Shown here piece by piece: positions 1-12,044 of a stretch of DNA of 64,000 bases. Position 1 is the stretch's first letter; each line of letters begins with the position of its first letter. The notes under the pieces were generated by a model, which worked only from the letters and a program-made list of their open reading frames with translations, did no database searches and was not told the DNA's origin. This DNA is from an uncultured Ruminococcus sp. (GTDB lineage: Bacteria > Bacillota > Clostridia > Oscillospirales > Ruminococcaceae). A program made the position numbers and the translations under genes. Where the stretch lies: NCBI GenBank assembly GCA_946413815.1, contig CAMKMD010000016.1:1-64000 (forward strand). The letters are read 5' to 3'.

Positions 1-29
1 TCACCCCTTGCTGAGCGCCCGAAGGCTAT

Positions 30-101
30 ATGCGGGGCTTTGCCCCACACCCCACAAGGGCTTTCAGCCCTTGACCTGACCAAAGGGGCGCGCCCCTTTG
101 G
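30..101. repeat. GC-rich modular palindromic intergenic repeat
   Basis: A run of short inverted repeats: a GGGGC/GCCCC hairpin near 33-47, an AAGGGC/GCCCTT hairpin near 56-72, and a 22-base perfect palindrome at 80-101 (CCAAAGGGGCG and its complement). It is related in style, though not base for base, to the elements at 24012-24169 and 30477-30570. It lies beyond the 3' end of the peptide operon. No coding potential was seen. Confidence 0.6.
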
Positions 102-151
102 AATCCCAAACGTTTGGTTTTATCGCTGAAACTACCTTTTTTGACAAGCTG

Positions 152-181
152 AGATCGCATAACCGTTTGGTTATGCGATCT
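152..181. terminator. Perfect 13-bp inverted repeat after the peptide operon
   Basis: Stem 152-164 pairs exactly with 169-181 around a GTTT loop, 34 bases beyond the stop codon of the last gene of the minus-strand operon. It is well placed to be the operon terminator or a 3' stabilising hairpin. There is no clear U-tract on the minus side (the strand reads A-rich there), so intrinsic termination is uncertain. A smaller palindrome, CCAAACGTTTGG, lies at 106-117. Confidence 0.5.
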
Positions 182-214
182 GATCTTATATATCAATATC
201 ACCTGATACAGTAA

Positions 215-1267
215 TTATCTTGCAACAGCCTGATCCAGCTTCAGGGCACAGCCCTTTGTTTCGACCGTCCTTACGCGCCTTGTGAAACTGAACACCTGAC
301 CTTCAAGGCCGCACTCACAGCCCTCTGTTATTCTTCCGATATCATCAGTGATCACGAAGGCAGGATAACTCTCTGCGCTTGAATCAAGAAAACAGAGAAC
401 TCCTTCCTCTCCGTCTTCAAGCTTTTCAAGAGTTACAGGATCCCGTGTAAATGCAAGGAATCCCGCGGGTATATGCTTCTTGTGACACCTGCATTCAAAG
501 AATGGAGTATTGGACTCCACCTGATTGAAGACATCAAAATACTGATCAGGGGTTATTCCGAAGAACCGGAAAAAGCAGGCGCAGAGCTCGTCTCTTGATA
601 CTGCGTTACCCTTCATGGATTTCCATCCTCCGGCTGTGAATACAACTGCATCATCAGGGAGGGTTACTGTCACAGCCTGCTCCTTCATATCATGGAATAC
701 CTTCATAAACAGAGCGGGTGCGCCAAGTATGACGATACGCTTGTCGGAGGGAATGTTCCTTATCCTCTCGATTAGCTTTTCTGTCTCCACATTTCCGGAA
801 TGCATGAAGTTGTATGACTCAACTGCGGTTTTCAGAAAGCCTGTAACATAGGCAAGCCAGATATCTCCTGCTTCTTCTGCATCGGGGCCTAAATTCAGGA
901 TAACGGTATTCTCAGCTTTAAGGCCGTGCATAATTCCTGCACCTGTCACAACTGACTCCACAAAGGACTTTATGGTCGCGCGGTCTCTGTATATCCTGCT
1001 GACAGCGCCTTTGGTACCGCTGCTGGTACAGCATTTGCAGAGAGACTTATCCACGGAGCAGACATCAATGGCCTTGAATATGGCTGTGGGTATCTGGGGG
1101 ATGGTGTAAAGGTCCTCAAGCTCGTTAAGGTCGGAGGGCTTCACATTATGGAGCTCACAAAACCTGCGGTAGGAATCGCAGTTGTTGTAATGTCTTTCAA
1201 AGCTCTTCTTTATTTCGTTGAATGTAAACTCTTTTCTTTCATTCCTGTCGTTTATAAAGCGTATCAT
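215..1267 (-). CDS. LuxE-like acyl-protein synthetase
   Basis: A 350-residue member of the LuxE acyl-protein synthetase family of adenylate-forming enzymes. Characterised LuxE activates a fatty acid with ATP, holds it on a C-terminal cysteine and passes it to LuxC for reduction to the aldehyde. The nucleotide-binding motif TSSGTKG is at residues 81-87. A cysteine at 340 (KGCAL), ten residues from the end, matches the place of the acylated Cys of luminous-bacterial LuxE. It overlaps the upstream LuxC-like gene by four bases (ATGA), so the two are translationally coupled. It is the last gene of the operon. There is no luciferase (LuxA/LuxB) in the window, so light production is not the role. 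The acyl substrate and the true acceptor are unknown; the carrier-like protein at 8284 and the peptides at 7474-8138 are candidate partners by inference. Confidence 0.88.
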   Translation of the reverse strand: MIRFINDRNERKEFTFNEIKKSFERHYNNCDSYRRFCELHNVKPSDLNELEDLYTIPQIPTAIFKAIDVCSVDKSLCKCCTSSGTKGAVSRIYRDRATIKSFVESVVTGAGIMHGLKAENTVILNLGPDAEEAGDIWLAYVTGFLKTAVESYNFMHSGNVETEKLIERIRNIPSDKRIVILGAPALFMKVFHDMKEQAVTVTLPDDAVVFTAGGWKSMKGNAVSRDELCACFFRFFGITPDQYFDVFNQVESNTPFFECRCHKKHIPAGFLAFTRDPVTLEKLEDGEEGVLCFLDSSAESYPAFVITDDIGRITEGCECGLEGQVFSFTRRVRTVETKGCALKLDQAVAR

Positions 1268-2718
1268 TTCTGGACTCCTTTCCCCTGTACTTTTATGGTG
1301 TAGATGAACTGATGGAAATAGCCCTCCGGTACATCATAGCGTTTTGCAAAATAGTCCGGCTCTTTATCCATTCCCACAAGGCGGACAAGCCTTGCCATGC
1401 TTATGCCCTCGTGTACAAGTCCTTCTCTGGGCATTTCAACTTCTCCGATATTGGATATTCTCGTCACACCGCATCTTGTAAGTCTGTCCCTTATCTCACG
1501 GGCAAGGGATTTCGGGGCGATGCCTACAGTCTGTACATACTTATCGATGTACCGGAAGCAATCATCTATCTCCTTTATCTCCTTGACGAATATCGTCCTT
1601 CCGAGAGGATGCTCGAATTTCAGGTCTGTCGTATCATCAAGAAGGACAACCATGTAATTCCTTTCATCGTCAGTAAGTGCGAGATTGCCGAGATATTCAT
1701 GTGATCTGAGAATATAGTTCATCTGTATATAATGATCGGAAGGATGACTGGAGCCCGGCCAGAGAAAATTATAATCTCTGAGTCCCTTGAAGAGCATAAA
1801 ACAGAACCTTCTTACGTCTCCGCCCTTTACCAGTATAAGCTGAGGTGAGAGACAGGCCTCCTGATCAAATACACTGACGTCTCTTGCCACATTATACGCC
1901 AGCTGCATATCATTTCCCTCTGAGTTGTCAATGATCTGAAGTCCCCTCTTCGGACCGTATTCTATGAATTCACATCCGATGGGACATTTCTGCTTGTATG
2001 TGATTATGGTATCATGTCCGCCCCATACCACCATACCGTTGGCTGCAGAGGTGAAATAATCGATGTTCTCCATATCATCCTTGTTCCAGTATACTGCCGA
2101 TACAGCCTTTGTTACAGGGTGCTCCGGATCAACATCATACATAGACTTTATGAAAAGATATGATGCAAGGAAATCCTTCTGAGAAAGCTTTACGATATTC
2201 ACGTTCTTTGTCATGAGGCCTCTGACTATGGAGTACAGGCCCACAAGTGCTACATTTCCTGAGATGATATGCAGTACCCTGCCGAGGGGCTCTGCGTGTA
2301 TCTCCGCATTTTCCTTTGATATCCATTCATCAAGTATCCTCTTGTCTCCCAGCTCGAACTCCACGGTATCCACCATGTAGTTCTTGAAGGAGATCATCTG
2401 TAGGAATACTCCGATATTATGCTTGTACATCTCGGATGTCTGTCCCGATATCCTCGGGCCGTAGCTGACAAGCATCTTTCTCAGCTCATACTCCGGATCA
2501 TGCCAGAGCTGCGATACCTTCTGCAGGAAAGCCACTATACTATTAAGTGTGATATCGTGTATGCTGTCCTGATCCATTGAGAGTATCCTTTCCCTTATGC
2601 TGTCATTGAGGACAGGATATTCGATTATCAGGTCATCGTATTCAAGACGCATCTTTTCTTCTGCGTATATTTCTTCTCCGCCCACAAGAAGCGGAAGAGC
2701 AAGTATCTCTTTTTCCAT
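1264..2718 (-). CDS. LuxC-like acyl-CoA/acyl-protein reductase
   Basis: A member of the LuxC reductase family, which takes a fatty acyl group from acyl-LuxE or acyl-CoA and reduces it with NADPH to a fatty aldehyde. The likely catalytic cysteine is in QEACLSP, about residue 289, preceded by a central aldehyde-dehydrogenase-like nucleotide-binding region (LGRVLHIISGN, about 145). I place the start at 2718: GGAGG at 2724-2728 sits five bases upstream, whereas an earlier ATG at 2730 would overlap that ribosome binding site. This gives 484 residues, near the normal family length. It lies 96 bases after the FtsX-type permease gene and overlaps the LuxE-like gene by four bases. In this anaerobe the pair would supply a fatty aldehyde, or a reduced acyl group, to the peptide pathway; that role is inference. 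Confidence 0.88.
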   Translation of the reverse strand: MEKEILALPLLVGGEEIYAEEKMRLEYDDLIIEYPVLNDSIRERILSMDQDSIHDITLNSIVAFLQKVSQLWHDPEYELRKMLVSYGPRISGQTSEMYKHNIGVFLQMISFKNYMVDTVEFELGDKRILDEWISKENAEIHAEPLGRVLHIISGNVALVGLYSIVRGLMTKNVNIVKLSQKDFLASYLFIKSMYDVDPEHPVTKAVSAVYWNKDDMENIDYFTSAANGMVVWGGHDTIITYKQKCPIGCEFIEYGPKRGLQIIDNSEGNDMQLAYNVARDVSVFDQEACLSPQLILVKGGDVRRFCFMLFKGLRDYNFLWPGSSHPSDHYIQMNYILRSHEYLGNLALTDDERNYMVVLLDDTTDLKFEHPLGRTIFVKEIKEIDDCFRYIDKYVQTVGIAPKSLAREIRDRLTRCGVTRISNIGEVEMPREGLVHEGISMARLVRLVGMDKEPDYFAKRYDVPEGYFHQFIYTIKVQGKGVQK

Positions 2719-2814
2719 TATTTCCTCCATTTAGTAGTGTGACTGTTGGTTGAATTGATACAGCCCCATGTCCCTGGAGCTGTGTTGTATATAATAGCAG
2801 AACAGAAAAATCAG

Positions 2815-4107
2815 TTATTCATCGCGCAGAGCATCTATAGGATTCATTCTTGCGGCTCTTGTAGCCGGATACAGACCGGAGCAAATGCCTACGAAACAGG
2901 CGAAGCCTATGGCAAGCAGTACTGTAGCAAGACTTGGTATAGTTACCACCTTTGCGATATATTTAGAATACTCCCCGAGTGATGAAGAATATCTTGAGAC
3001 CAGTTTTGAAAGAACATTGCAGTTTACGATGCCGAACAGAATGCCGAGAATCCCTCCGATGAGACACAGGGAGACCGCTTCAAGGGAGAATTGCAGGAGA
3101 ACATTTCCGTCAGTCGCGCCAAGGGCTTTTCTGATGCCTATCTCCTTTGTCCTCTCTGATATGCTTACAAGCATGATATTCATTACACCGATGCCTGCGA
3201 CTATGAGAGAGACAGCTGCAATGCCGGCAACCACAGCGATTATCATGGAAACTACCTTGTCGGTAGCTTCTGCGTCCTTCTGTATATCGTCGATCTCACC
3301 ATAGTAATACTTTCTTGCGATATACTTCTTCTCAAAGAACTCAGCAAGATGCTCTTTAAGCACCTCCCTGTCGATATCCTTATTACCGGCTATATCTACA
3401 ACAGAAAATACTGTTCTCAGATTGCCTGCAATTGATTCAAGCACCTCGTACGGGATATAGATATCGGTCTGTTTGTCCAGCAGAGACCTTGCACCCGGAA
3501 AATCATAGGCGTTAGTTTTATATACTCCCACAACAGTAAGCTTCACTATCCTGCTGCCTTTTATTTTTATCTCCACCGTTTTTCCCAGCGGATTGACACC
3601 GCTGCCGAAATACTGCCGCACAAATACATCCGCCACAACGGCGGTATACTTATTCCTTTCGCCGTCGGACTGAAGCAGCTCCCTGCCCATAGTTATTTCC
3701 TTTTTGTTGCACTGGAAAAATCCCTCGGTAACGCCGTATACATTGGTGGTGAACTTTTCACCGGATTCATTGCTGCTGTCTGCATAATCATAGAACACCG
3801 AAACAGCAGGCTTGAATTCGTCCTTGTATTCCCTTGAAAGCTCCTGAAGCCATTCATACTGTATCCTGTCAGCTGCCTCTGCTCTCGGCGGGTTCACATC
3901 CGGCCTTCCGCACATATATACCCTGAAAGTATTCAGCGACTGATAGTATATCATGTTCTGAACTGTATCCTTGATAGTGATGCCAAGGGTGAATATGGTC
4001 ACGATGGAGGATATGCCAACGATTATTCCTATCATGGTGAGTACAGACCGCATCCTGTTTGACCTGAGAGCCTGAAATGCCATCCTGATGTATTCAAGTA
4101 CATTCAT
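2815..4107 (-). CDS. FtsX/MacB-type ABC transporter permease
   Basis: A 430-residue MacB-like permease. An N-terminal membrane helix (about 20-42) is followed by a large extracytoplasmic domain (about 45-280) and three C-terminal helices (about 283-412). Family motifs are the IGIRKALGA coupling segment and a C-terminal GLYPATRAARMNPIDALR-like end. Such permeases work as dimers with a MacB/LolD-type ATPase and, here, a membrane-fusion adaptor, moving substrates outward. The adaptor gene ends 12 bases upstream, but no MacB-type ATPase gene is in this operon. The closest in-window relative is 39361-40665, which does have a neighbouring ATPase (40662-41510). Borrowing that ATPase, or cooperation with the ABC exporter at 5642, is inferred. 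Confidence 0.9.
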   Translation of the reverse strand: MNVLEYIRMAFQALRSNRMRSVLTMIGIIVGISSIVTIFTLGITIKDTVQNMIYYQSLNTFRVYMCGRPDVNPPRAEAADRIQYEWLQELSREYKDEFKPAVSVFYDYADSSNESGEKFTTNVYGVTEGFFQCNKKEITMGRELLQSDGERNKYTAVVADVFVRQYFGSGVNPLGKTVEIKIKGSRIVKLTVVGVYKTNAYDFPGARSLLDKQTDIYIPYEVLESIAGNLRTVFSVVDIAGNKDIDREVLKEHLAEFFEKKYIARKYYYGEIDDIQKDAEATDKVVSMIIAVVAGIAAVSLIVAGIGVMNIMLVSISERTKEIGIRKALGATDGNVLLQFSLEAVSLCLIGGILGILFGIVNCNVLSKLVSRYSSSLGEYSKYIAKVVTIPSLATVLLAIGFACFVGICSGLYPATRAARMNPIDALRDE

Positions 4108-4119
4108 ATCTGCTCACCG

Positions 4120-5538
4120 TTAATTGTTATAGTTGTCAGAGGAATAATAATCGCCGATGCTTACCACATCTCCGTCGGATAATCTTTCTGCGGGGAAGAG
4201 TATCTTTTCATCAGGCCCGATATCACCGGTTATCTCGGTAAGATAGGATGTCTCCATACCAGAGGTGATCTCCCTGCGGACAGCGGTGAATGAACCGTCG
4301 GCGTTCTCTTCGCCTACAAAAACGTATTCCCTGCCGTCCTCACCGTTTACGACAGCTTCATAGGGAACAGCGATAATGCCCTCTTTCTTCTCGGTAATTA
4401 TCGTGATCTGAGTGCTCATGCCTATGATAACGGATTCGTCAACGTTGTCTATACTTATCCTTACGGAGTATACTGTGGAATCAACTGATTTGTCATCACG
4501 TATCTTTATAACGCTGAGTATCTTTCCGGAATAGACCTTGTCATTATTGGCGATCATAGATATCTCACAGTTCTGTCCTTCAAATATTTTCAGGATATCT
4601 GTTTCATATACAGTAGCGTTTATGACAAGGGAACTGTCGTCTGCGATGGTCATTATCGAATCGGTCGTAGGTATTGAGCCTTCCTTTACTGAAAGGGATG
4701 TTACGATACCGCTTTCCGGTGCGACAACTGTACATTCGGAGAGCCTGGAGCTGAGCTCGTCAAGCTTCTGCTGAACGGAAAGATCTTTGAGGTAGGAATC
4801 GCTGTTCACTACGGCATTTGCAGCCTGTATCGCATGATCAGCCTCTATTGCTGTCCTGTTGTAATTATCCTGCGCATTGGCAACTGCGTTATCATATCCG
4901 ACCAACTCTCCACCAAGCTGAGAGAGCTGTTCGCTGACCGTGGCATAGGACTTCTCTGCGGAATCCCTAGCCATTATCAGTGCTGAGGGGTCTGCTGAGG
5001 ATGATATCTGCTGATTCAGGGAAGCGATGGTATTGTAAAGCTCCTGCTGTTTTGCAGCAAGCTCGTTGTAACGGCTGTAGGCATAGCTCTGCTTTGATAC
5101 CGCTTCGTCTATGGCTCTCTGCGCTATACGCAGTGATATATCCTTCTGATTCTGCGCAAGGGAAAGATCCCTCAGATGAGCTTCATGCTCGCTGTCCTGT
5201 TTCTTTGCGGCTATCTCCATTTCCTGTGTCAGCGAGTCAATCTGACGCTGGATATCGCTTGTGTCAAACTCACAGAGAACATCGCCTGCTTTTACTGTAC
5301 TGCCGACTGACACGCATAGCTTTGATACTCTGGCATTAAGGCTGCTGGTTATGCTCAATGCATCAGAACCCTCTACTGTTCCTGTGGCTGAAACTGTGTT
5401 CTCAAGATCTGTTTCCTCTGTAATATATGAATTGCACTGTATACCGGGCTGCACATCTGATTTACCGCATCCGGTACCTGATATCATAAGTACTGAAGCT
5501 AAAAAAGCACAGATAATCGTTTTTGTTCTGTATTTCAT
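4120..5538 (-). CDS. Membrane-fusion (HlyD/RND-type) periplasmic adaptor subunit
   Basis: A 472-residue adaptor: N-terminal hydrophobic segment ending at Cys24 (lipoprotein-like, though the lipobox is imperfect), a biotinyl-lipoyl-like half motif (GSTVKAGDVLCEFD, about 78-91), a long helical hairpin rich in Gln/Ala (about 95-265), then the second lipoyl half and a beta-barrel domain. In Gram-positive bacteria these proteins link FtsX/MacB-type permeases to extracellular handling of peptides or drugs. It is paralogous to the adaptor at 41507-42955 (shared TDLEN, GTVEG/GAVEG and VKAGDVLC motifs). It lies between the ABC exporter and the permease in the peptide operon, which suggests it helps secrete the mature product. 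Confidence 0.88.
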   Translation of the reverse strand: MKYRTKTIICAFLASVLMISGTGCGKSDVQPGIQCNSYITEETDLENTVSATGTVEGSDALSITSSLNARVSKLCVSVGSTVKAGDVLCEFDTSDIQRQIDSLTQEMEIAAKKQDSEHEAHLRDLSLAQNQKDISLRIAQRAIDEAVSKQSYAYSRYNELAAKQQELYNTIASLNQQISSSADPSALIMARDSAEKSYATVSEQLSQLGGELVGYDNAVANAQDNYNRTAIEADHAIQAANAVVNSDSYLKDLSVQQKLDELSSRLSECTVVAPESGIVTSLSVKEGSIPTTDSIMTIADDSSLVINATVYETDILKIFEGQNCEISMIANNDKVYSGKILSVIKIRDDKSVDSTVYSVRISIDNVDESVIIGMSTQITIITEKKEGIIAVPYEAVVNGEDGREYVFVGEENADGSFTAVRREITSGMETSYLTEITGDIGPDEKILFPAERLSDGDVVSIGDYYSSDNYNN

Positions 5539-5641
5539 TTTCTCACCTGCATCAAATAGATTCGTTGATTATGCAATAATCTCCAATAACAGCTTTAGGA
5601 GCACTTATGATGCTCCTGAAAAACTGTATTCCTCTGTAGTG

Positions 5642-7330
5642 CTATACTGCGTTCTTTTCCTTTGAAATGCTGCTTTGTATCGCTGCTTTCTCCATGACGG
5701 CATTTCCATCTGAAATAACGATCCTGTTGTCAAAGTGATCTATGATCTCGTCTGAATGAGATACACATATTACAGTAGTATCCTTCAGCTTTGTATCAAA
5801 AAGATCTATGAAGCTCTTTACACTTATCCTGTCAAGATTAGCTGTTGCTTCATCAAAAAGGAGTATTGGTCTTTTCATTACAAGTGCCCTTGCCAGAGCG
5901 ATTTTCTGCTTCTGACCGCCAGACAGATTTGAACCGCCCAGTTCGATCTGATGATCAAGGCCATGCTGCTGTACAAATTTTTCAAGGTTCACATTTCTTA
6001 TGATCTCCGCAAGATCCTCCTCGGGCACATCATTGCCGAGGCAGATATTGTCTCTGAGTGTATCATGGAACAGGAAAATATCCTGCGATACCACGCTGTA
6101 GAGCTTACGGTATTCTTCAAGGTTCACATCAGTTACAGGCTTACCGCCTATCCTTATTTCTCCCGATACCGGCTCTATAAGGGCAAGAAGAAGATTAAGG
6201 AAGGTGGTCTTTCCTGCGCCGTTTTCCCCTGCGACTACTGTCTTGCTTCCGTACGGGATGCTTATGTTGATATCACTGAATACCATTTCATCTTTTTCGT
6301 TGTAGGCAAATGATACATCATGGAATTCTATTGCGCCTTCACTGAATCTGATGCCTTCCTCTGCGGAATTCTCCTCCGGTTCATCAATAAAATCATAATA
6401 ACGTCTGATATGAGGAAGGAGGGAGATAAAGGAGAATACCAGTCCGATTACCATCGCCTCAGAACCGGATACCATGAGCATATAAGCCTGGAATGCCACA
6501 ACGCTTCCCACCGTGAGATCGCTCTTTATCATGAAATAGGCTGAAAGAAGATATATAAGAGCCTTGAGTACCTCGGTAAGAAATGCCTGTGTCTGTGTAT
6601 TATATGTGAGCAGCATACTGCATCTGGAGCTGGTATCTGTGATATCTTCGAGCATCTCCTCCATTCTGGCAGTCCTGCGGTCCTGTAAACCGAAAAGACG
6701 TATCTCCCTGACTCCGTTTATAGTCTCACCGTACCAGCTGCTGTAGCTGCGCCGGAGAGCGATCGCCTGGCGGATCTGATCGCGGTTCTTCCTTGAAAAG
6801 ATCTCGGAGCATATTATATTCAGCGGGGTGAACAGTATTACCGCCAGCCCGAGATGCCAGTCTATCCGGAAAAGTGCTACACCTCCCGCTATAGCGGAGA
6901 ACACAGCGGTGACCGCACTTATGGTGGAATCATTCACAAGAGAGCTTATGTTGTTTATATCCTCATCGATGCACTGGTAGGTGCTCGTTGCATTCTTGTC
7001 AGTGAAGTATGATATCCTGACACCGAGAAGATGACGGAATACCTCCTTCTGCATTTTTGCCTTGACGCTGAGATTCATCTTTACCGCTTCCCTGCGTCTG
7101 AGTATGCCTATAAATATTGATGCTGTATTTAACGCAAGTATACTGAGTGCTGAAACAATGATACAATCCCTGTCGGCTTTGATGAAGCCCTCATCGATCA
7201 GCTTCCTTGAAAAGAAAGGAAGGAAGTAATTGATGACCATGAGTATCATGATATATAGTATAATGAACGCTACTGACCTTTTGTAGTCAGAAAACAGTTT
7301 CAGTATTTTCTTTAGATAGATCCTATTCAT
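5642..7330 (-). CDS. ABC exporter (fused membrane and ATPase domains), probable peptide exporter
   Basis: A 562-residue half-transporter: six-helix membrane domain (about 15-315), then a nucleotide-binding domain with Walker A GENGAGKTT (368-376), signature LSGGQ (469-473), Walker B ending D493-E494 and switch His525. All catalytic residues are present, so a homodimer would be active. It lacks an N-terminal C39 peptidase domain, so leader cleavage must be done by another protein or may not occur. It follows the two precursor-peptide genes by 143 bases and precedes the adaptor gene by 103 bases; export of the modified peptide is the simplest role. The Shine-Dalgarno at its start is weak (GATTTGAAAATAT before ATG), so expression may depend on coupling or a secondary promoter. 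Confidence 0.9.
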   Translation of the reverse strand: MNRIYLKKILKLFSDYKRSVAFIILYIMILMVINYFLPFFSRKLIDEGFIKADRDCIIVSALSILALNTASIFIGILRRREAVKMNLSVKAKMQKEVFRHLLGVRISYFTDKNATSTYQCIDEDINNISSLVNDSTISAVTAVFSAIAGGVALFRIDWHLGLAVILFTPLNIICSEIFSRKNRDQIRQAIALRRSYSSWYGETINGVREIRLFGLQDRRTARMEEMLEDITDTSSRCSMLLTYNTQTQAFLTEVLKALIYLLSAYFMIKSDLTVGSVVAFQAYMLMVSGSEAMVIGLVFSFISLLPHIRRYYDFIDEPEENSAEEGIRFSEGAIEFHDVSFAYNEKDEMVFSDINISIPYGSKTVVAGENGAGKTTFLNLLLALIEPVSGEIRIGGKPVTDVNLEEYRKLYSVVSQDIFLFHDTLRDNICLGNDVPEEDLAEIIRNVNLEKFVQQHGLDHQIELGGSNLSGGQKQKIALARALVMKRPILLFDEATANLDRISVKSFIDLFDTKLKDTTVICVSHSDEIIDHFDNRIVISDGNAVMEKAAIQSSISKEKNAV

Positions 7331-7473
7331 ATATTTTCAAATCTGAAACAGGACAAAGCATCCGCGGCATATGATGTGGTCAGTATCATACGCTCACGAA
7401 TGCCGCCGTTTAACATTTCTTATTACAGTCTCTTGTAAAGACCTCCGGTATATCCTGTGTATTATTCCTGCGA

Positions 7474-7635
7474 TCAGATATCGTTCTCATTGAACTCCTG
7501 AGAATATCTGGTGCAGCTTCCGGCACAAGTACACTTAGGTGCGGGTGTAGGTGTAGGAGAATCTCCGCCTGAACCGCCTCCGCCGAGGCAGACAACCTTT
7601 TCTGTGTAGAGTGCAGATACCTTGTTGAATGTCAT
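7474..7635 (-). CDS. Cys/Gly-rich precursor peptide 1 (putative RiPP substrate)
   Basis: A 53-residue open frame starting ATG at 7635 behind an excellent GGAGGTGAAAC ribosome binding site. It starts MTFNKVSA, then an acidic/basic segment, Cys16, a glycine stretch, a Pro-Thr repeat (about 26-33) and a C-x-C-x3-C cluster (Cys35, 37, 41). The leader and ribosome binding site are nearly identical to those of the second peptide (7980-8138) while the rest differs, the usual pattern of paralogous ribosomal peptide precursors. The neighbouring radical SAM/SPASM maturase and carrier-like protein resemble the Clostridium Cys-rich peptide (CLI_3235/CcpM) systems; that assignment rests on memory of the families, not a search. 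Modification (for example a Cys thioether) is inference. Confidence 0.8.
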   Translation of the reverse strand: MTFNKVSALYTEKVVCLGGGGSGGDSPTPTPAPKCTCAGSCTRYSQEFNENDI

Positions 7636-7979
7636 GATATGTTTCACCTCCGTTCCTTGTGAATGACCGGTTCACAGTTTCTATCTTATCCGCTGAGAGC
7701 GGATATATAGCATAGAATATGACTGCCTTAGTGTGACCGTCCGTGCAGAGACAGTCTGCATGGAAAATAGTAAGAAAATGGAAAAAGGTGAAAAGTATAT
7801 CAAAAATTGTTTACTGTGATCTGACCGTGATCACATTATATGTATCGGAAAGCCATTTACTTTTCCGTAACTTATGCTTATATAATAACCGTTTTCCCGC
7901 ACCTGTCCGGAAGGTCAGCCCCTTTCAGGTACGGACGGTTATTCTGTTTAATGAACAGATGCCATTAGGGCATCAGTCA
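7636..7979 (-). other. Spacer between the precursor genes with two strong hairpins
   Basis: A 344-base non-coding stretch. A long hairpin has its outer stem at 7884-7891 with 7936-7943 (AATAACCG/CGGTTATT) and its inner stem at about 7897-7905 with 7926-7934. A second perfect hairpin pairs 7687-7694 with 7698-7705. On the minus strand these lie between peptide 2 and peptide 1 and could act as processing sites, RNA stabilisers or partial terminators that set the dose of peptide relative to downstream genes. No open frame with a ribosome binding site was seen. Confidence 0.55.
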
Positions 7980-8138
7980 TTAATAAATGCCGTGATCCCA
8001 GTTGTACTCATCGTTCTTGATTACGTATGCAGAACCGCCGCAGATGCAGGTTGAAGAGCTGCCGCCGGATGAACCGCCGTCGCCACCGCAAGCTACAAAC
8101 TTCTCGTCGAAGGGAGCAGATACCTTGTTGAATGTCAT
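7980..8138 (-). CDS. Cys/Gly-rich precursor peptide 2 (putative RiPP substrate)
   Basis: A 52-residue peptide starting ATG at 8138 with GGAGGTGAAAC upstream; the frame extends further upstream but the strong ribosome binding site fixes this start. It starts MTFNKVSA like peptide 1, has Cys17 followed by a Gly/Ser-rich linker, a C-x-C pair (Cys31, Cys33) followed by GGS, and an acidic aromatic tail. The shared layout is leader, lone Cys, Gly/Ser linker, C-x-C. It lies 145 bases downstream of the carrier-like protein gene. A TATAAT-like box at 8263-8268 on the minus strand could provide an extra promoter, but no good -35 was found. It is a likely substrate of the radical SAM maturase at 9616. 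Confidence 0.82.
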   Translation of the reverse strand: MTFNKVSAPFDEKFVACGGDGGSSGGSSSTCICGGSAYVIKNDEYNWDHGIY

Positions 8139-8283
8139 ATTGTGTTTCACCTCCGTTAATTTGAAAGACCAGTTCAAAGATTGTCTATTCAAGCCGCAGT
8201 TATACGGCCTGATAGCAGAGTAAGGTATATTGTAAAGTCAATTAGTAAGACTGGAGTTCGGTATTATATGCAGTAAGACCGGC

Positions 8284-8532
8284 TCATTTTCTGAGCGCTA
8301 TCTGCTCTGCAATGGAACGGATGGTATTGAAATTCTTATTATCGATGTCATCTGCTTCAAGTCTGATATTGAAGTGTGCCATCACCTCAAGGGCAAGATA
8401 GCACATCTCAACAACGGAAAAGCAGAGCTTGTCACCTGTGAGAGGAAGATCTTCAGCTCCCGGTTCTCTGACGGAGCTGTCTTTCTTTATGCTGTAAGCG
8501 ATCTCTGTAACTTCTGAAATAATGTTTTCCAC
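8284..8532 (-). CDS. Acyl-carrier-protein-related peptide maturation protein
   Basis: An 82-residue helical protein of ACP size. The segment after the first loop (GDKLCFSVVEM) aligns with the DSLDxVE motif of acyl carrier proteins, but the phosphopantetheine-bearing serine corresponds to Cys37; Ser39 is two residues later. It fits the 'peptide maturation system acyl carrier-related' family that accompanies radical SAM Cys-rich peptide systems (family recalled, not searched). The start is GTG at 8532 with AGGAGG upstream, 19 bases after the previous gene. Possible roles are a scaffold, or a carrier using a cysteine or another attachment site; both are inference. The LuxE-like gene in the same operon makes an acyl-transfer role attractive. 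Confidence 0.75.
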   Translation of the reverse strand: MENIISEVTEIAYSIKKDSSVREPGAEDLPLTGDKLCFSVVEMCYLALEVMAHFNIRLEADDIDNKNFNTIRSIAEQIALRK

Positions 8533-8551
8533 TTGTGATCCTCCTGATGAT

Positions 8552-9619
8552 TCATGTTAACTTGCTTATACAGCTTTCTGTGATCCTTTCGTATACAGTA
8601 CTGTCATCATAGACAGAGAAGACAACGTCCTTCATGGCCTCCTTCAGATCACCGAGCTGTTCATACGCCTTATCCACACCGTTTTTTGTGTAAAGTATTT
8701 TCTGAGCCTCAGGAGAGTACTCCCTGTCGATCTTTACAGGCTGTATCAGACAGGAGTCAAGTGAGAAGCCGAATCTGCCGGAGATCATTGATCTTATGCA
8801 CTCATAAGCCTCCGGTCTGAGTATTTCGAGGAGAGAGATGAGAACGAAATAATCGATGCCTATCGCTCTTGAAATCATAAATGTCTTGACTCCGTATGAA
8901 TCATAGACATCCGGTATGAACTTCATTATGCCGTCAGGGAACTGGATCAGCATTATATCGCATTTTGATCTTCTTTCTACGTCCTTGAAAAAAGCATTCA
9001 GCGCAGCGACCTGTCTTTCGATCTCCATGCCGCTTGTAAATATCTCCGAAGGGAAATGGTAGTAGCCGAGAAGAGAAAGAGTTGCATTGGTGGTGACCGA
9101 AGCTGTGCGGATATTCTTTTTTCTGAACTGAGAGGTTATGCCTGTGATCGCCGCAACATCATCAAGGCCTCTGTAGAGGCCGGAAATGCCTAATGCGGCA
9201 CAGTTGATATCCTCGTGTCTGTAACCGTATTCGCCCATTCCGTCAGGGTTGGCGTACTTCATTATGATGTTTCTTTCCGGATACTTCTCCCTGAGCCTTT
9301 CTTCGTCTGCGTTCTTGATCTTCGTGCAGAATATGACGTCTTTTCCTGATGAAAGGCTGAATTCGGCTTTTTCGATGATATCTCCGTACATAAACTTCCT
9401 GCGGGAGATATCAGCAAAAATAACACAGTCAGTATCTGCGGAAAGCTTTTCAAAATCCGATCCGGATCCCACAGAAGAGATCTCAGATGTATGTACGATG
9501 CTCTTTTTCCAGGCTATCGGATATATAACGGCTGTTATGCAGATATGATCAACAAGTTCCTCTGCATTTGAGATGAGAGGATACAGATCATCTGAGTATG
9601 GATAAACAGAGCATTTCAT
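8552..9619 (-). CDS. Peptide maturation system protein (TIGR04066-like)
   Basis: A 355-residue soluble protein with no recognised catalytic motif. It resembles the TIGR04066-type 'peptide maturation system protein' that is found with CcpM-type radical SAM maturases and Cys-rich peptides in Clostridia; this rests on size, sequence style and exact gene context. The N-terminal half looks like an alternating alpha/beta fold (segments such as DCVIFADIS and DVIFCTKI), and a second such segment is near CDIMLIQFPDGIM. Its start overlaps the stop of the radical SAM gene by four bases. Its activity is unknown; it may bind or present the precursor or the carrier-like protein encoded next. Confidence 0.7.
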   Translation of the reverse strand: MKCSVYPYSDDLYPLISNAEELVDHICITAVIYPIAWKKSIVHTSEISSVGSGSDFEKLSADTDCVIFADISRRKFMYGDIIEKAEFSLSSGKDVIFCTKIKNADEERLREKYPERNIIMKYANPDGMGEYGYRHEDINCAALGISGLYRGLDDVAAITGITSQFRKKNIRTASVTTNATLSLLGYYHFPSEIFTSGMEIERQVAALNAFFKDVERRSKCDIMLIQFPDGIMKFIPDVYDSYGVKTFMISRAIGIDYFVLISLLEILRPEAYECIRSMISGRFGFSLDSCLIQPVKIDREYSPEAQKILYTKNGVDKAYEQLGDLKEAMKDVVFSVYDDSTVYERITESCISKLT

Positions 9620-11064
9620 ATATTGATCTTCCTTTTATATACTGAATCTATTTCTCTGACAAGTGCTGCAAATCTGAGGTTGTTCCTGAAACTCTTTCTG
9701 ATGGCCGGACATTGTGCCAGCTTGCTCTCTGCGGTGATACTGTCTTCTCTGGCAGAATTGACTGCACAGGATGAACAGTGCCTGAAAGCATAGCATTCCT
9801 TACAGGCATCCGCGGTCAGCTGCGCAACATTCAGGACTCTTTCTGCCTTTGCAATATCAATACCGTAGTTTATATTGCCAATCATCGTATCTTCGGCAAG
9901 CTCGTTGACCTTCTCGCAGGGATAGAAATTTCCGTCAGCATTAACGAACAGTCTCCTCTGACCTGGGATACAGGGGCCGCCGGGAGCGGTAATATCCCCC
10001 AGTCTGCCGGATGCTTCTGTGATACCATCATTTTTCTCGATCTGTCTCAGAGCAAGAAAATCCGAAACAGGATCAAGAGAAATACCCTTAACGATACCTA
10101 ACCGGCTCATAAGAGCTCTGAAACGGTCATAGGCAAACTTCTCAACGAAATCGTCTTTGTTCTGTATTTCATTTTCAAGTTTGGTGGATGAAACAAGGCT
10201 CGGGTTTATGCCTATACCGCTTTCCCTGAAGAAGGGATCATCAAAAAGATGCGTGATCTCGTCAAAATCGTTCTCAGGATTGATAACTGTGTTTATGTGT
10301 ATCTTTTCCTTGGCACGCTTGCCGTATAAAGCATACAGCTTTTTCAGATTGTCCACTGCTTCCCTGAAGCTGCCGCTGCCGTCTGCCTTTCTGCGGTTGA
10401 TGTCATGTATAGATTCCGGACCGTCGATACTGAACATTACACGGAAGTCATGGTCTGAAAGATAGCTTATGATCTCGTCTGTCATAATTGTTCCGTTGGT
10501 GGTAAGTGAATAGGTGACATTCTTTCCCACAAACTGCTTATCGGCATATTCTACAGCCTGCCTGATAAGAGGGAAATTCATGAACGGCTCTCCGCCGTAA
10601 AAACCGATACAGACATTTTCTGTCTCGGAAGAATTCTCGAGCAGAAGATCTATACTTTTCCTTGCGGTTTCCCAGTCCATTTTCTTTGAACTGTGGTTCC
10701 TCTGGAAACTGTCGTCAGTCCTGTTCGCAAAAGGACAGTAGCTGCATACAAGATTACAGGACTGAGTGACCTGGAGTATGAGTTCGTTCATTCTGTTGGT
10801 TATCTGGAATTCAATATCATCTGAGTGATTGTGTCTTATGGTGCTTACACGATGATCGCTGAGATAGCCGCGGTTAATAAGTGAAAGCAGCATTTCACGG
10901 TCAGAGACACAAAGATCCTCTATGCTGCTCACATCTTCAGGGATGTCCTTGTTTTTACTGAGATAATTAAACAGGGATTCTGTAAGCTCGATTATCCCTT
11001 CGGTATTAACGTCATAAAAATAATAGCTGTTGTGTGTAGCAAAAAGATGTATGAAGGGTCTCAT
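9616..11064 (-). CDS. Radical SAM/SPASM peptide maturase
   Basis: A 482-residue radical SAM enzyme. An N-terminal region of about 85 residues resembles a peptide-recognition domain. It is followed by the cluster motif CNLVCSYC (Cys103, 107, 110), GGEP at 157-160 and a C-terminal SPASM domain with cysteines at 365, 383, 421, 424, 430, 433 and 452 that would bind auxiliary Fe-S clusters. Enzymes of this plan introduce thioether, C-C or similar links into ribosomal peptides. It is the first gene of the operon, with AAGGAG about ten bases before the ATG and a clear promoter at 11182-11210. The best guess is a CcpM-like maturase acting on the two Cys/Gly-rich peptides at 7474-8138. The exact chemistry cannot be read from sequence. 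Confidence 0.9.
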   Translation of the reverse strand: MRPFIHLFATHNSYYFYDVNTEGIIELTESLFNYLSKNKDIPEDVSSIEDLCVSDREMLLSLINRGYLSDHRVSTIRHNHSDDIEFQITNRMNELILQVTQSCNLVCSYCPFANRTDDSFQRNHSSKKMDWETARKSIDLLLENSSETENVCIGFYGGEPFMNFPLIRQAVEYADKQFVGKNVTYSLTTNGTIMTDEIISYLSDHDFRVMFSIDGPESIHDINRRKADGSGSFREAVDNLKKLYALYGKRAKEKIHINTVINPENDFDEITHLFDDPFFRESGIGINPSLVSSTKLENEIQNKDDFVEKFAYDRFRALMSRLGIVKGISLDPVSDFLALRQIEKNDGITEASGRLGDITAPGGPCIPGQRRLFVNADGNFYPCEKVNELAEDTMIGNINYGIDIAKAERVLNVAQLTADACKECYAFRHCSSCAVNSAREDSITAESKLAQCPAIRKSFRNNLRFAALVREIDSVYKRKINI

Positions 11065-11181
11065 TGTGGTGGATCTCCTTGGTGTGATGAGTAGTAAGAT
11101 AATGAAAATCGATGATGGAATATATAACGTTGACCTGAATCGCGTAAAGCAATAATGTTATAACCCGTTTGATTTAATTTT

Positions 11182-11210
11182 ATGATAGCATAATTTTTCT
11201 ACCTTGTCAA
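11182..11210 (-). promoter_or_regulatory. Sigma-A promoter of the peptide operon
   Basis: On the minus strand: TTGACA (11205-11210), 17-base spacer, TATCAT (11182-11187) preceded by an extended -10 TGC. It predicts transcription from about 11175 and a leader of about 110 bases before the radical SAM gene. No operator or riboswitch was recognised in that leader. Confidence 0.8.
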
Positions 11211-11456
11211 TGATACTACTTGCCGAAATCGATTGAACAAATCAGATATTTTTGTAGTGTTTCTACATTTTTCAGGCACGTAATTATCCTGATTTTGCCA
11301 GATTTCAGTAAAGCAGCCTTCCGCCATAAAACGACTTATATTGCCAACAAGCGGGCAATAAGCTCCCTCTTACACATGTACGAGATATCCTCCTGACATT
11401 TCCGGAAATCGGGGTAAAGTATAAGTACAAACGACTGTTAAAGCAAATATCACGAC
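11211..11456. other. Divergent intergenic region upstream of a leaderless amidase
   Basis: With 11065-11210 this forms a 392-base gap between divergent genes. Apart from the minus-strand promoter no convincing plus-strand promoter or ribosome binding site was found. Where a signal peptide for the amidase gene would be expected, the matching frame is closed by a stop at 11439-11441. The stretch may be the decayed 5' end of that gene. Confidence 0.4.
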
Positions 11457-12044
11457 TTGGTTTTAGTTGATCCGTCACATGGAGGAATCGACGGCGGCTG
11501 TACAAGTGCGGATGGTATACCTGAGAAAGGCATAAATCTCAGCATCATGCTACGGCTGCGGGATATCCTTGAACTCAGCGGATACCGTGTTGAGGTGACA
11601 CGTGACTCAGACCGCTCTGTTCATGATGCAGGTGTTGAAGGTATCGCCGCTCAGAAAAGCTCGGATATGGACAACAGACTTGCGCTCTTCAATTCCTCCC
11701 CTGATGCTGTATGTGTGTCCATTCATCAGAATCAGTTCACTGATCCTGTTTACTCCGGCGCTCAAATGTTCTATTCCTCCTCTCACCGGCGCAGTGAGGA
11801 GCTTGCTCAGGCTATGCAGAACCGGTTCCGTGAGCTGCTGCAGCCGGACAACGAACGTGAGATAAAGCACTGTGGAAAAGAGCTGTTTCTATGCTATTAC
11901 AGCGAGAATCCCACTGTAATGGCTGAATGCGGCTTTCTTTCAAATCCGGCTGAGGCAGCACTGCTCAATACAGAAGAATATCAGCAGAAGGTCGCTCTTA
12001 CGCTGTTTGCCGGCATCAATGACTATATCAGCCGTCGAAGGTGA
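11457..12044 (+). CDS. N-acetylmuramoyl-L-alanine amidase (CwlD/AmiC type), lacking a signal peptide
   Basis: A 195-residue amidase_3 catalytic domain that would cut the bond between muramic acid and the stem peptide of peptidoglycan. The zinc ligands and catalytic Glu appear present: DPSHGG (usual DPGHGG), PEKGIN, SIHQN and AECGFLSN. The frame opens only at 11442 and the first usable start is a TTG at 11457, directly at the beginning of the catalytic domain. There is therefore no signal peptide or membrane anchor and only a weak ribosome binding site. Family members that act on the wall are exported, so this is either a 5'-truncated gene or an enzyme with an unusual location. The cysE promoter begins immediately after its stop. 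Confidence 0.8.
   Translation: MVLVDPSHGGIDGGCTSADGIPEKGINLSIMLRLRDILELSGYRVEVTRDSDRSVHDAGVEGIAAQKSSDMDNRLALFNSSPDAVCVSIHQNQFTDPVYSGAQMFYSSSHRRSEELAQAMQNRFRELLQPDNEREIKHCGKELFLCYYSENPTVMAECGFLSNPAEAALLNTEEYQQKVALTLFAGINDYISRRR

Follow-up and report, generated by a model that had tools for sequence, protein, structure and literature searches.

A ten-gene operon on the minus strand (11064 to 215) of the first 64,000 nucleotides of contig CAMKMD010000016.1 from an uncultured Ruminococcus sp., the whole stretch being called the window and its positions serving as coordinates, joins CcpM-like genes for maturation of a ribosomally synthesized and post-translationally modified peptide (RiPP) to genes for LuxC- and LuxE-type enzymes, and the same genes occur in the same order in a second genus. 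It is proposed that LuxE and LuxC act here as a carboxylic acid reductase within peptide maturation and that the resulting aldehyde, or a derivative of it, modifies the peptide before export, a reading whose chances we consider about even. It draws on the genes themselves and their order, the conservation of the unit in two genera, the cysteines of both enzymes and the recurrence of acid-activating genes in sister clusters. A machinery for turning carboxylic acids into aldehydes that is best known from glowing bacteria is thereby found placed inside a ribosomal peptide pathway and kept in two genera.

In the proposed pathway, the radical SAM/SPASM enzyme would bind the leader shared by the small precursors and cross-link their C...CxC cores. 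LuxE would adenylate an acid, probably a fatty acid in view of the similarity to the lux enzymes, and hold it as a thioester on Cys340, and LuxC would take the acyl group on Cys293 and reduce it, giving the aldehyde. Either this aldehyde or something derived from it would then modify the peptide, which the set of ABC exporter, adaptor and permease may export. The predicted product class would be of practical interest, an aldehyde being reactive and inhibitor-like, and how active an antimicrobial peptide is often depends on its lipid tail. We know of no characterized RiPP that is finished as an aldehyde by a lux-type reductase. No open-licence paper was found that links LuxC/LuxE to radical SAM RiPP or bacteriocin clusters, nor one on sactipeptide clusters with an AMP-binding enzyme and an acyl carrier protein (ACP).

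Organization of the operon

An earlier note on this DNA had described a ten-gene minus-strand unit behind a good promoter, with two precursors that have a leader in common, genes for transport (three) and both LuxC- and LuxE-like enzymes. All ten co-directional open reading frames (ORFs) are present on that strand between 11064 and 215, and each of these parts was borne out. The features, in gene order, are as follows:

11182..11210, minus strand: sigma-70-type promoter-like site, TTGACA-17-TATCAT with TG before the -10 (11/12 consensus match)
9616..11064, minus strand: radical SAM/SPASM maturase, CcpM (TIGR04068)-like, with CxxxCxxC at C103/C107/C110 (family models)
8552..9619, minus strand: TIGR04066-family peptide maturation protein (family model)
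8284..8532, minus strand: TIGR04069 protein, related to acyl carriers and lacking the phosphopantetheine serine (family model and alignment)
8160..8206, minus strand: two-hairpin leader element 5' of precursor A, hairpins at about 8190-8206 and 8160-8178 (pattern and alignment fold)
7980..8138, minus strand: precursor peptide A, 52 residues, MTFNKVSAPFDEKFVAC...CIC... (no family match)
7658..7704, minus strand: two-hairpin leader element 5' of precursor B, hairpins at about 7688-7704 and 7658-7676 (pattern and alignment fold)
7474..7635, minus strand: precursor peptide B, 53 residues, MTFNKVSALYTEKVVCLGGGG...CTC... (no family match)
5642..7330, minus strand: ABC exporter with membrane and ATPase domains, no peptidase domain matched in Pfam (Pfam)
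4120..5538, minus strand: HlyD/MacA-type membrane fusion protein (the adaptor), with a lipoprotein-like N-terminus as judged by eye (Pfam/NCBIfam)
2815..4107, minus strand: MacB-like permease without ATPase domain (Pfam/NCBIfam)
1264..2730, minus strand: LuxC-type acyl-protein/acyl-CoA reductase, Cys293 conserved (Pfam and alignment)
215..1267, minus strand: LuxE-type acyl-protein synthetase, C-terminal Cys340 conserved (Pfam and alignment)

The radical SAM and TIGR04066 genes overlap by 4 bases, as do LuxC and LuxE. In a simple promoter scan, the 84-base gap between the permease gene and LuxC held no promoter-like match on the operon strand. The same scan gave 10/12 matches within the operon, for example at 7663-7634 upstream of precursor B, and 33 matches in total versus 23.4 in shuffled sequences, so that internal transcription starts may also occur. 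Downstream of LuxE, a 13-bp inverted repeat at 152-181 is terminator-like on the plus strand only. The contig begins 214 bases past LuxE, and short inverted repeats are abundant in its first 150 bases (GGGGCGCGCCCC and others); three repeat strings from this part occur nowhere else in the window.

A second operon and the rarity of the pairing

A metagenome-assembled genome of another genus (MSGZ01000009.1, stretch L091) carries the same genes in the same order with seven precursor genes. Identity to the window is 57% for the radical SAM protein, 55% for TIGR04066, 48% for TIGR04069, 63% each for the ABC exporter and the adaptor and 66% each for the permease, LuxC and LuxE, so that the last two equal the transport genes (63-66%) in conservation. 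Several gaps between genes are equal or nearly so in both operons (-4, 19, about 103 and 12 bases), whereas that ahead of LuxC is 84 versus 46 bases and the LuxC/LuxE overlap 4 versus 23 bases in the window and the second operon, respectively. A promoter-like site (TTGACA-18-TATACT with TG, 11/12) precedes the radical SAM gene of the second genome as well. The earlier note had treated maturase and LuxC/LuxE as one unit, and the colinearity of the whole operon in a second genus at 48-66% identity agrees with this; on the same ground a chance neighbourhood was rejected.

The pairing appears to be rare. The LuxC of the window matched one of 125 sampled members of its own genus (E up to 1e-10), namely the window's own genome, and LuxC was matched in one of 30 sampled members of the second genus (E up to 1e-40); among the congeners, G023 carries two distant members of the LuxC family. 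Ten of the 347 genomes in a family sample matched at E up to 1e-15, namely the genome of the window, that of the second operon with 66% identity and eight others with 24-32%, while in a second family sample (396 genomes, two-row LuxC profile) the two matching genomes were the two operon carriers. For the class (391 genomes), 12 matches were obtained at E up to 1e-20, all except the window's own at 25-28% identity. A scan of GTDB contigs with two short peptide patterns, which can miss relatives, gave no relative for the LuxC query (P0009) alone and, with two sequences, only the second operon already known.

The converse view is similar. Among 23 genomes chosen for TIGR04066 (19) or a related radical SAM protein (4), three have a LuxC-family gene (E up to 1e-15), in each case on a contig other than that of the cassette (G498, C6 versus C31; G023, C128 versus C94; G157, C62 versus C168, these last being contigs of 3.8 and 5.7 kb between which the distance cannot be judged). 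Likewise no maturase or TIGR04066 match was obtained in ten stretches around other LuxC genes of the same class, one of them only 3.8 kb long. The earlier expectation that these genes would co-occur in relatives therefore holds for the second genus, where the whole operon was found, and fails for all more distant relatives sampled, where the combination was not seen. As the pairing was unseen outside the orthologues, it represents a variant and does not belong to the usual make-up of either family.

In both genomes the operon has a lower G+C content than its surroundings (44.9 versus 51.4% in the window, 49.2 versus 54-57% in the second genome). This, together with the absence of this LuxC from other sampled congeners, is compatible with transfer as a unit, and the operon is apparently a rare unit that moves as a whole between genera.

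LuxC and LuxE

Both enzymes match their Pfam families over nearly their full length and well above the gathering cut-offs (LuxC, PF05893, 257 bits against 21; LuxE, PF04443, 218.7 bits against 24.9), and they score below the NCBIfam equivalog cut-offs (264.6 versus 750 and 228.4 versus 550 bits, respectively). They match Photorhabdus LuxC and LuxE with 214 and 192 bits at 30 and 33% identity, nearly full length, and the corresponding chains of PDB entry 7XC6 with 201 and 196 bits. As in the lux reductase (Photorhabdus genes, 7XC6), LuxC stands ahead of LuxE and both cysteines are present. The cysteines of the Photorhabdus enzymes correspond in the alignments to C293 (LuxC) and C340 (LuxE), which we take to be the catalytic residues, the latter accepting the acyl group. 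As the cysteine is kept in 20 of 20 LuxC rows and 17 of 18 LuxE rows, it speaks for competence rather than for kinship with lux.

Ordinary LuxE-LuxC pairs from ten stretches of the same class (L070-L079) belong to the same two Pfam families and have the same cysteines in nearly all rows. They differ from the window in that LuxE precedes LuxC, the bit scores are lower (30-114 for LuxC, 44-120 for the paired LuxE) and no maturase match lies nearby; in two annotated plasmid records a short-chain dehydrogenase/reductase gene follows the pair. The best other LuxC row tried, from a Niallia plasmid, reached 141 bits. In one of the ten stretches (L070, 9737-12385) the LuxC-family match lies inside an 883-residue open frame downstream of the LuxE gene, with a long extension.

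In trees of 20 LuxC and 18 LuxE rows, which include one true lux sequence, the two operon copies pair at 100%. The LuxC tree gives 87% support to a clade of other Bacillota-type and Pantoea pairs that includes neither operon copy, nor Photorhabdus, nor another three rows (L098-L100), while the corresponding support in the LuxE tree is 65%. With these values and a single true lux row, a sister relation between the operon copies and lux is not established. In a plasmid search the best LuxC match was to lux genes on an F-type plasmid record of E. coli K-12, presumably Photorhabdus genes.

Unlike the lux operons, the ten genes include no luxA, luxB or recognized luxD, and a RiPP operon surrounds the pair. 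No gene of the luciferase family (PF00296, E up to 1e-5) was found in either operon-bearing genome, against 10 of 14 control genomes; the aldehyde is therefore not made for light, and a remnant of bioluminescence was rejected as an explanation. Photorhabdus luxC, luxE and luxD together with a decarbonylase are reported to turn free fatty acids, by way of aldehydes, into alkanes in E. coli (PMC5270751, PMC10318755).

Acid-activating genes in sister clusters

Outside the window, 20 stretches covering 21 of 30 places with TIGR04066 or related radical SAM genes were fetched, of which 13 from 11 genomes were kept as having a radical SAM gene and a separate TIGR04066 gene (L034-L038 and L040-L047, L042 holding two cassettes). 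L039 was left out because its contig ends ahead of the radical SAM gene, and L048-L053 because their TIGR04066 matches lie mostly in long frames. In seven of the 13 stretches the maturase is accompanied by an AMP ligase, a true ACP or both. The PaaK-like ligases, all of one family, occur in six (L035-L038, L040, L041), and a PP-binding ACP with its serine also in six (L034-L038, L040). In five stretches the ACP directly precedes the ligase (L035, 5599-7129; L036, 13667-15203; L037, 13599-15114; L038, 5138-6674; L040, 7313-8852). The nearest maturase found elsewhere than in the two operons (42%) is that of L034, where a FabF-like synthase gene comes after the ACP.

Four of the six ligases, searched with a LuxE profile, scored 31-49 bits. 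The sister modules, like that of the window, place an adenylate-forming type of enzyme in a RiPP cluster of this kind, and the enzyme is a distant relative of LuxE; unlike the window, five of the six have a separate true ACP adjoining the ligase and LuxC was matched in none, whereas the LuxE of the window has its own acyl-accepting cysteine and LuxC would reduce the thioester. It is plausible that CcpM clusters carry an exchangeable acid-activating module, of which LuxE and LuxC would be the reductive version. For a poorly characterized RiPP family, an acid-activating ligase and/or ACP beside the maturase would offer a general idea of how its members are modified. The broader claim, that a lux-type fatty acid reductase serves as a RiPP tailoring enzyme (through a fatty aldehyde or reduction of the peptide's own carboxylate) and that the CcpM family is largely acylated by an exchangeable module (PaaK-like ligase and ACP, ACP and ketosynthase, or LuxE and LuxC), is put forward tentatively, with the balance leaning somewhat against it.

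Maturation proteins and transporters

The maturase matches the radical SAM domain (PF04055) with 62.4 bits and CcpM (TIGR04068) with 460.8 bits over nearly its full length, the best of 68 families and below the curated cut-off of 500, while its SPASM match (PF13186, 20.6 bits) falls marginally short of 21.5. The TIGR04066 and TIGR04069 proteins score 125.7 bits (cut-off 200) and 29.4 bits (cut-off 70), respectively. As all three scores lie below the cut-offs, yet each family is the best match of its protein, the operon appears to be a divergent branch of the CcpM/TIGR04066/TIGR04069 type; judged by its sequences, the cluster is outside these families by the cut-offs yet laid out like one. The order radical SAM, TIGR04066, TIGR04069, precursor is, in our assignment, common to the window, the second operon and 10 of the 13 fetched relatives, the exceptions being L042 and L046, with a candidate precursor ahead of the radical SAM gene, and L045, with the small TIGR04069-type gene ahead and no precursor found.

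The closest studied relative is the antimicrobial SacP23 of Paenibacillus polymyxa #23. It was produced by heterologous expression, its N-terminus is reported to be blocked and its mass to be 3404, versus 4455 predicted for its 42-residue core, the authors suggesting more trimming (PMC10731318). The blocked N-terminus is compatible with acylation without demonstrating it. The SacP23 cluster and other TIGR04068/66/69 clusters share with the window the order radical SAM, TIGR04066, TIGR04069, an ABC exporter and small Cys-containing precursors (PMC10731318, PMC4573289). The SacP23 cluster has a subtilisin-like protease and places a Cys-rich CLI_3235 precursor first, whereas the window has no S8 protease match, precursors that have fewer cysteines (2-4 over both genomes), are in many cases rich in glycine and fit no family model, and in addition the adaptor, the MacB-like permease, LuxC and LuxE.

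The absence of S8 proteases was established with a profile of five S8-like proteins for the window and with the same five sequences around the second operon; three of the five pass the Pfam S8 cut-off and two fall short. Such proteases are common, not universal, in the clusters (7 of the 13 relatives). In four of the six stretches L048-L053, a long ORF matched by the S8 profile joins an S8 subtilase-like domain, in roughly its first 230 residues, to a TIGR04066 domain (L048, 8389-10230; L049, 8592-10442; L051, 5796-7604; L053, 9920-11722). These fusions suggest that TIGR04066 proteins may work with a leader protease; the operon of the window has TIGR04066 and no S8 match. The predicted structure of its TIGR04066 protein has a mean pLDDT of 47.6 from a two-row alignment, a quality inadequate for fold comparison, and a PDB profile search with 16 TIGR04066 proteins gave one weak match, to a reductase (E 0.004, about 100 positions), that was not relied on.

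The small TIGR04069 protein had earlier been called carrier-like. Its relationship to ACPs holds, in that a profile of 13 members matches ACP structures (E 4e-7). The implied acyl carrier role does not, because the serine of the phosphopantetheine site is absent in 13 of 13 aligned members, being replaced by V in the window and H in the second genome, so the protein is very unlikely to carry acyl groups and was ruled out as the acyl carrier. The protein of the window has a serine one position earlier, where that of the second genome has none, and two weak matches in a looser set of 17 (L043, L044) have the serine. It may have a scaffold or docking role.

For the transport genes, the ABC exporter matches PF00664 and PF00005, and the permease matches MacB_PCD and FtsX without an ATPase domain match. 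The MacA-like adaptor and MacB-like permease are present in both operons (window, 2815-5538; L091, 11362-14088), neither of which has a separate MacB-type ATPase gene.

Precursor peptides

Nine precursors are available from the two genomes, two in the window and seven in the second operon. MTFNKVSA is common to both precursors of the window, each of which has C...CxC, and the leader motif EK[YFV]V is common to all nine. Eight of nine have a later C...CxC, often with glycines between, and each terminates in a short variable tail. The last residue is I in three, Y in four, D in one and S in one, so that the extreme C-terminus offers no conserved carboxylate. A CLI_3235 precursor family model exists; precursors A and B matched no NCBIfam and no Pfam family at E up to 0.01.

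Evaluation of the proposed pathway

A number of observations weigh against the participation of LuxE and LuxC in peptide maturation as proposed here. The combination is present in only two genomes, LuxC/LuxE were matched in none of the 20 fetched stretches, and the pair occupies the last position in the operon, one in which genes of unrelated function might also be carried along. The conserved small 'carrier' lacks the serine at its site, and no obvious transferase of aldehyde or acyl group onto the peptide was recognized among the operon genes. For the sister clusters, four ligases compared with family models were closest to PaaK and related CoA ligases, all below the curated cut-offs; the L041 ligase reads RAYEFGGK in place of the usual RTSGSTGK; the sampling of ligases is uneven, since the genus of the window accounts for four of six stretches, two of them in a single genome, and other families for two; and six of the 13 stretches (L042-L047) have neither ligase nor ACP.

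That LuxC/LuxE are merely a downstream pair moved along with the cluster is very improbable. Their position as the last two genes, their absence from every other fetched CcpM-like cluster and a weak 9/12 promoter-like match in the 46-base gap ahead of LuxC in the second genome would suit such an origin. The gap in the window has no such match; moreover, order and 66% identity were kept where the maturase is only 57% identical, and both places with a LuxC of the operon type carry the full operon.

Alternatively, the fatty aldehyde or alcohol may not be joined to the peptide at all, serving self-protection through a change in membrane lipid, leaving the cell as a lipid exported alongside the peptide, or giving rise to an ether lipid. 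The unrecognized attachment enzyme is consistent with this, as are the adaptor and MacB-like permease, which are separate from the ABC exporter and adjoin LuxC. The linkage to precursor and maturase in both genomes, with this LuxC missing from the rest of the sampled genera, fits a peptide-specific role; an immunity role would nevertheless give identical linkage. Overall we regard an unattached lipid as rather unlikely.

It is also conceivable that LuxE and LuxC act on the peptide itself, a C-terminal or Asp/Glu side-chain carboxylate of the matured peptide being adenylated and reduced. The result would be an aldehyde or alcohol of ribosomal origin, comparable to the peptide aldehydes that nonribosomal synthetases in the gut produce. 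The shared operon with the precursors would accommodate this, as would the fact that neither a LuxD-kind gene releasing fatty acids nor a transferase was recognized in the operon. In the sister clusters, the PaaK-like ligases are likewise without a known acid substrate. However, the last residue varies over the nine precursors, and LuxC/LuxE are nearest, among those tried, to enzymes for long-chain fatty acids, which makes reduction of the peptide carboxylate distinctly improbable.

Leader element of the precursor genes

Ahead of every one of the nine precursors stands TGTGAACCGGTCATTCACA or a variant with up to 4 changes, those of the second genome lying within L091 7222-9300. A 16-base pattern written from the copies themselves, KTGAACYGGTCWTTCA, matches the two genomes without mismatch at nine places, all of them ahead of the nine precursors, and with one mismatch at three places elsewhere, while the reversed pattern has none. 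No Rfam family matched positions 1-12000 of the window at E up to 1, and a known RNA family was rejected on this basis. The nine-row alignment folds into two hairpins immediately upstream of the ribosome binding site, with at least one double change in 7 of 12 pairs. Pair 47-63 is kept in all nine rows as GC, GU or UA, and the occurrence of GU pairs favours an RNA over a DNA operator. The upper hairpin appears weaker, as its pairs are broken in up to three of nine rows; the outermost lower pair is broken in two. It is plausible that this element sets the level of the precursor mRNA.

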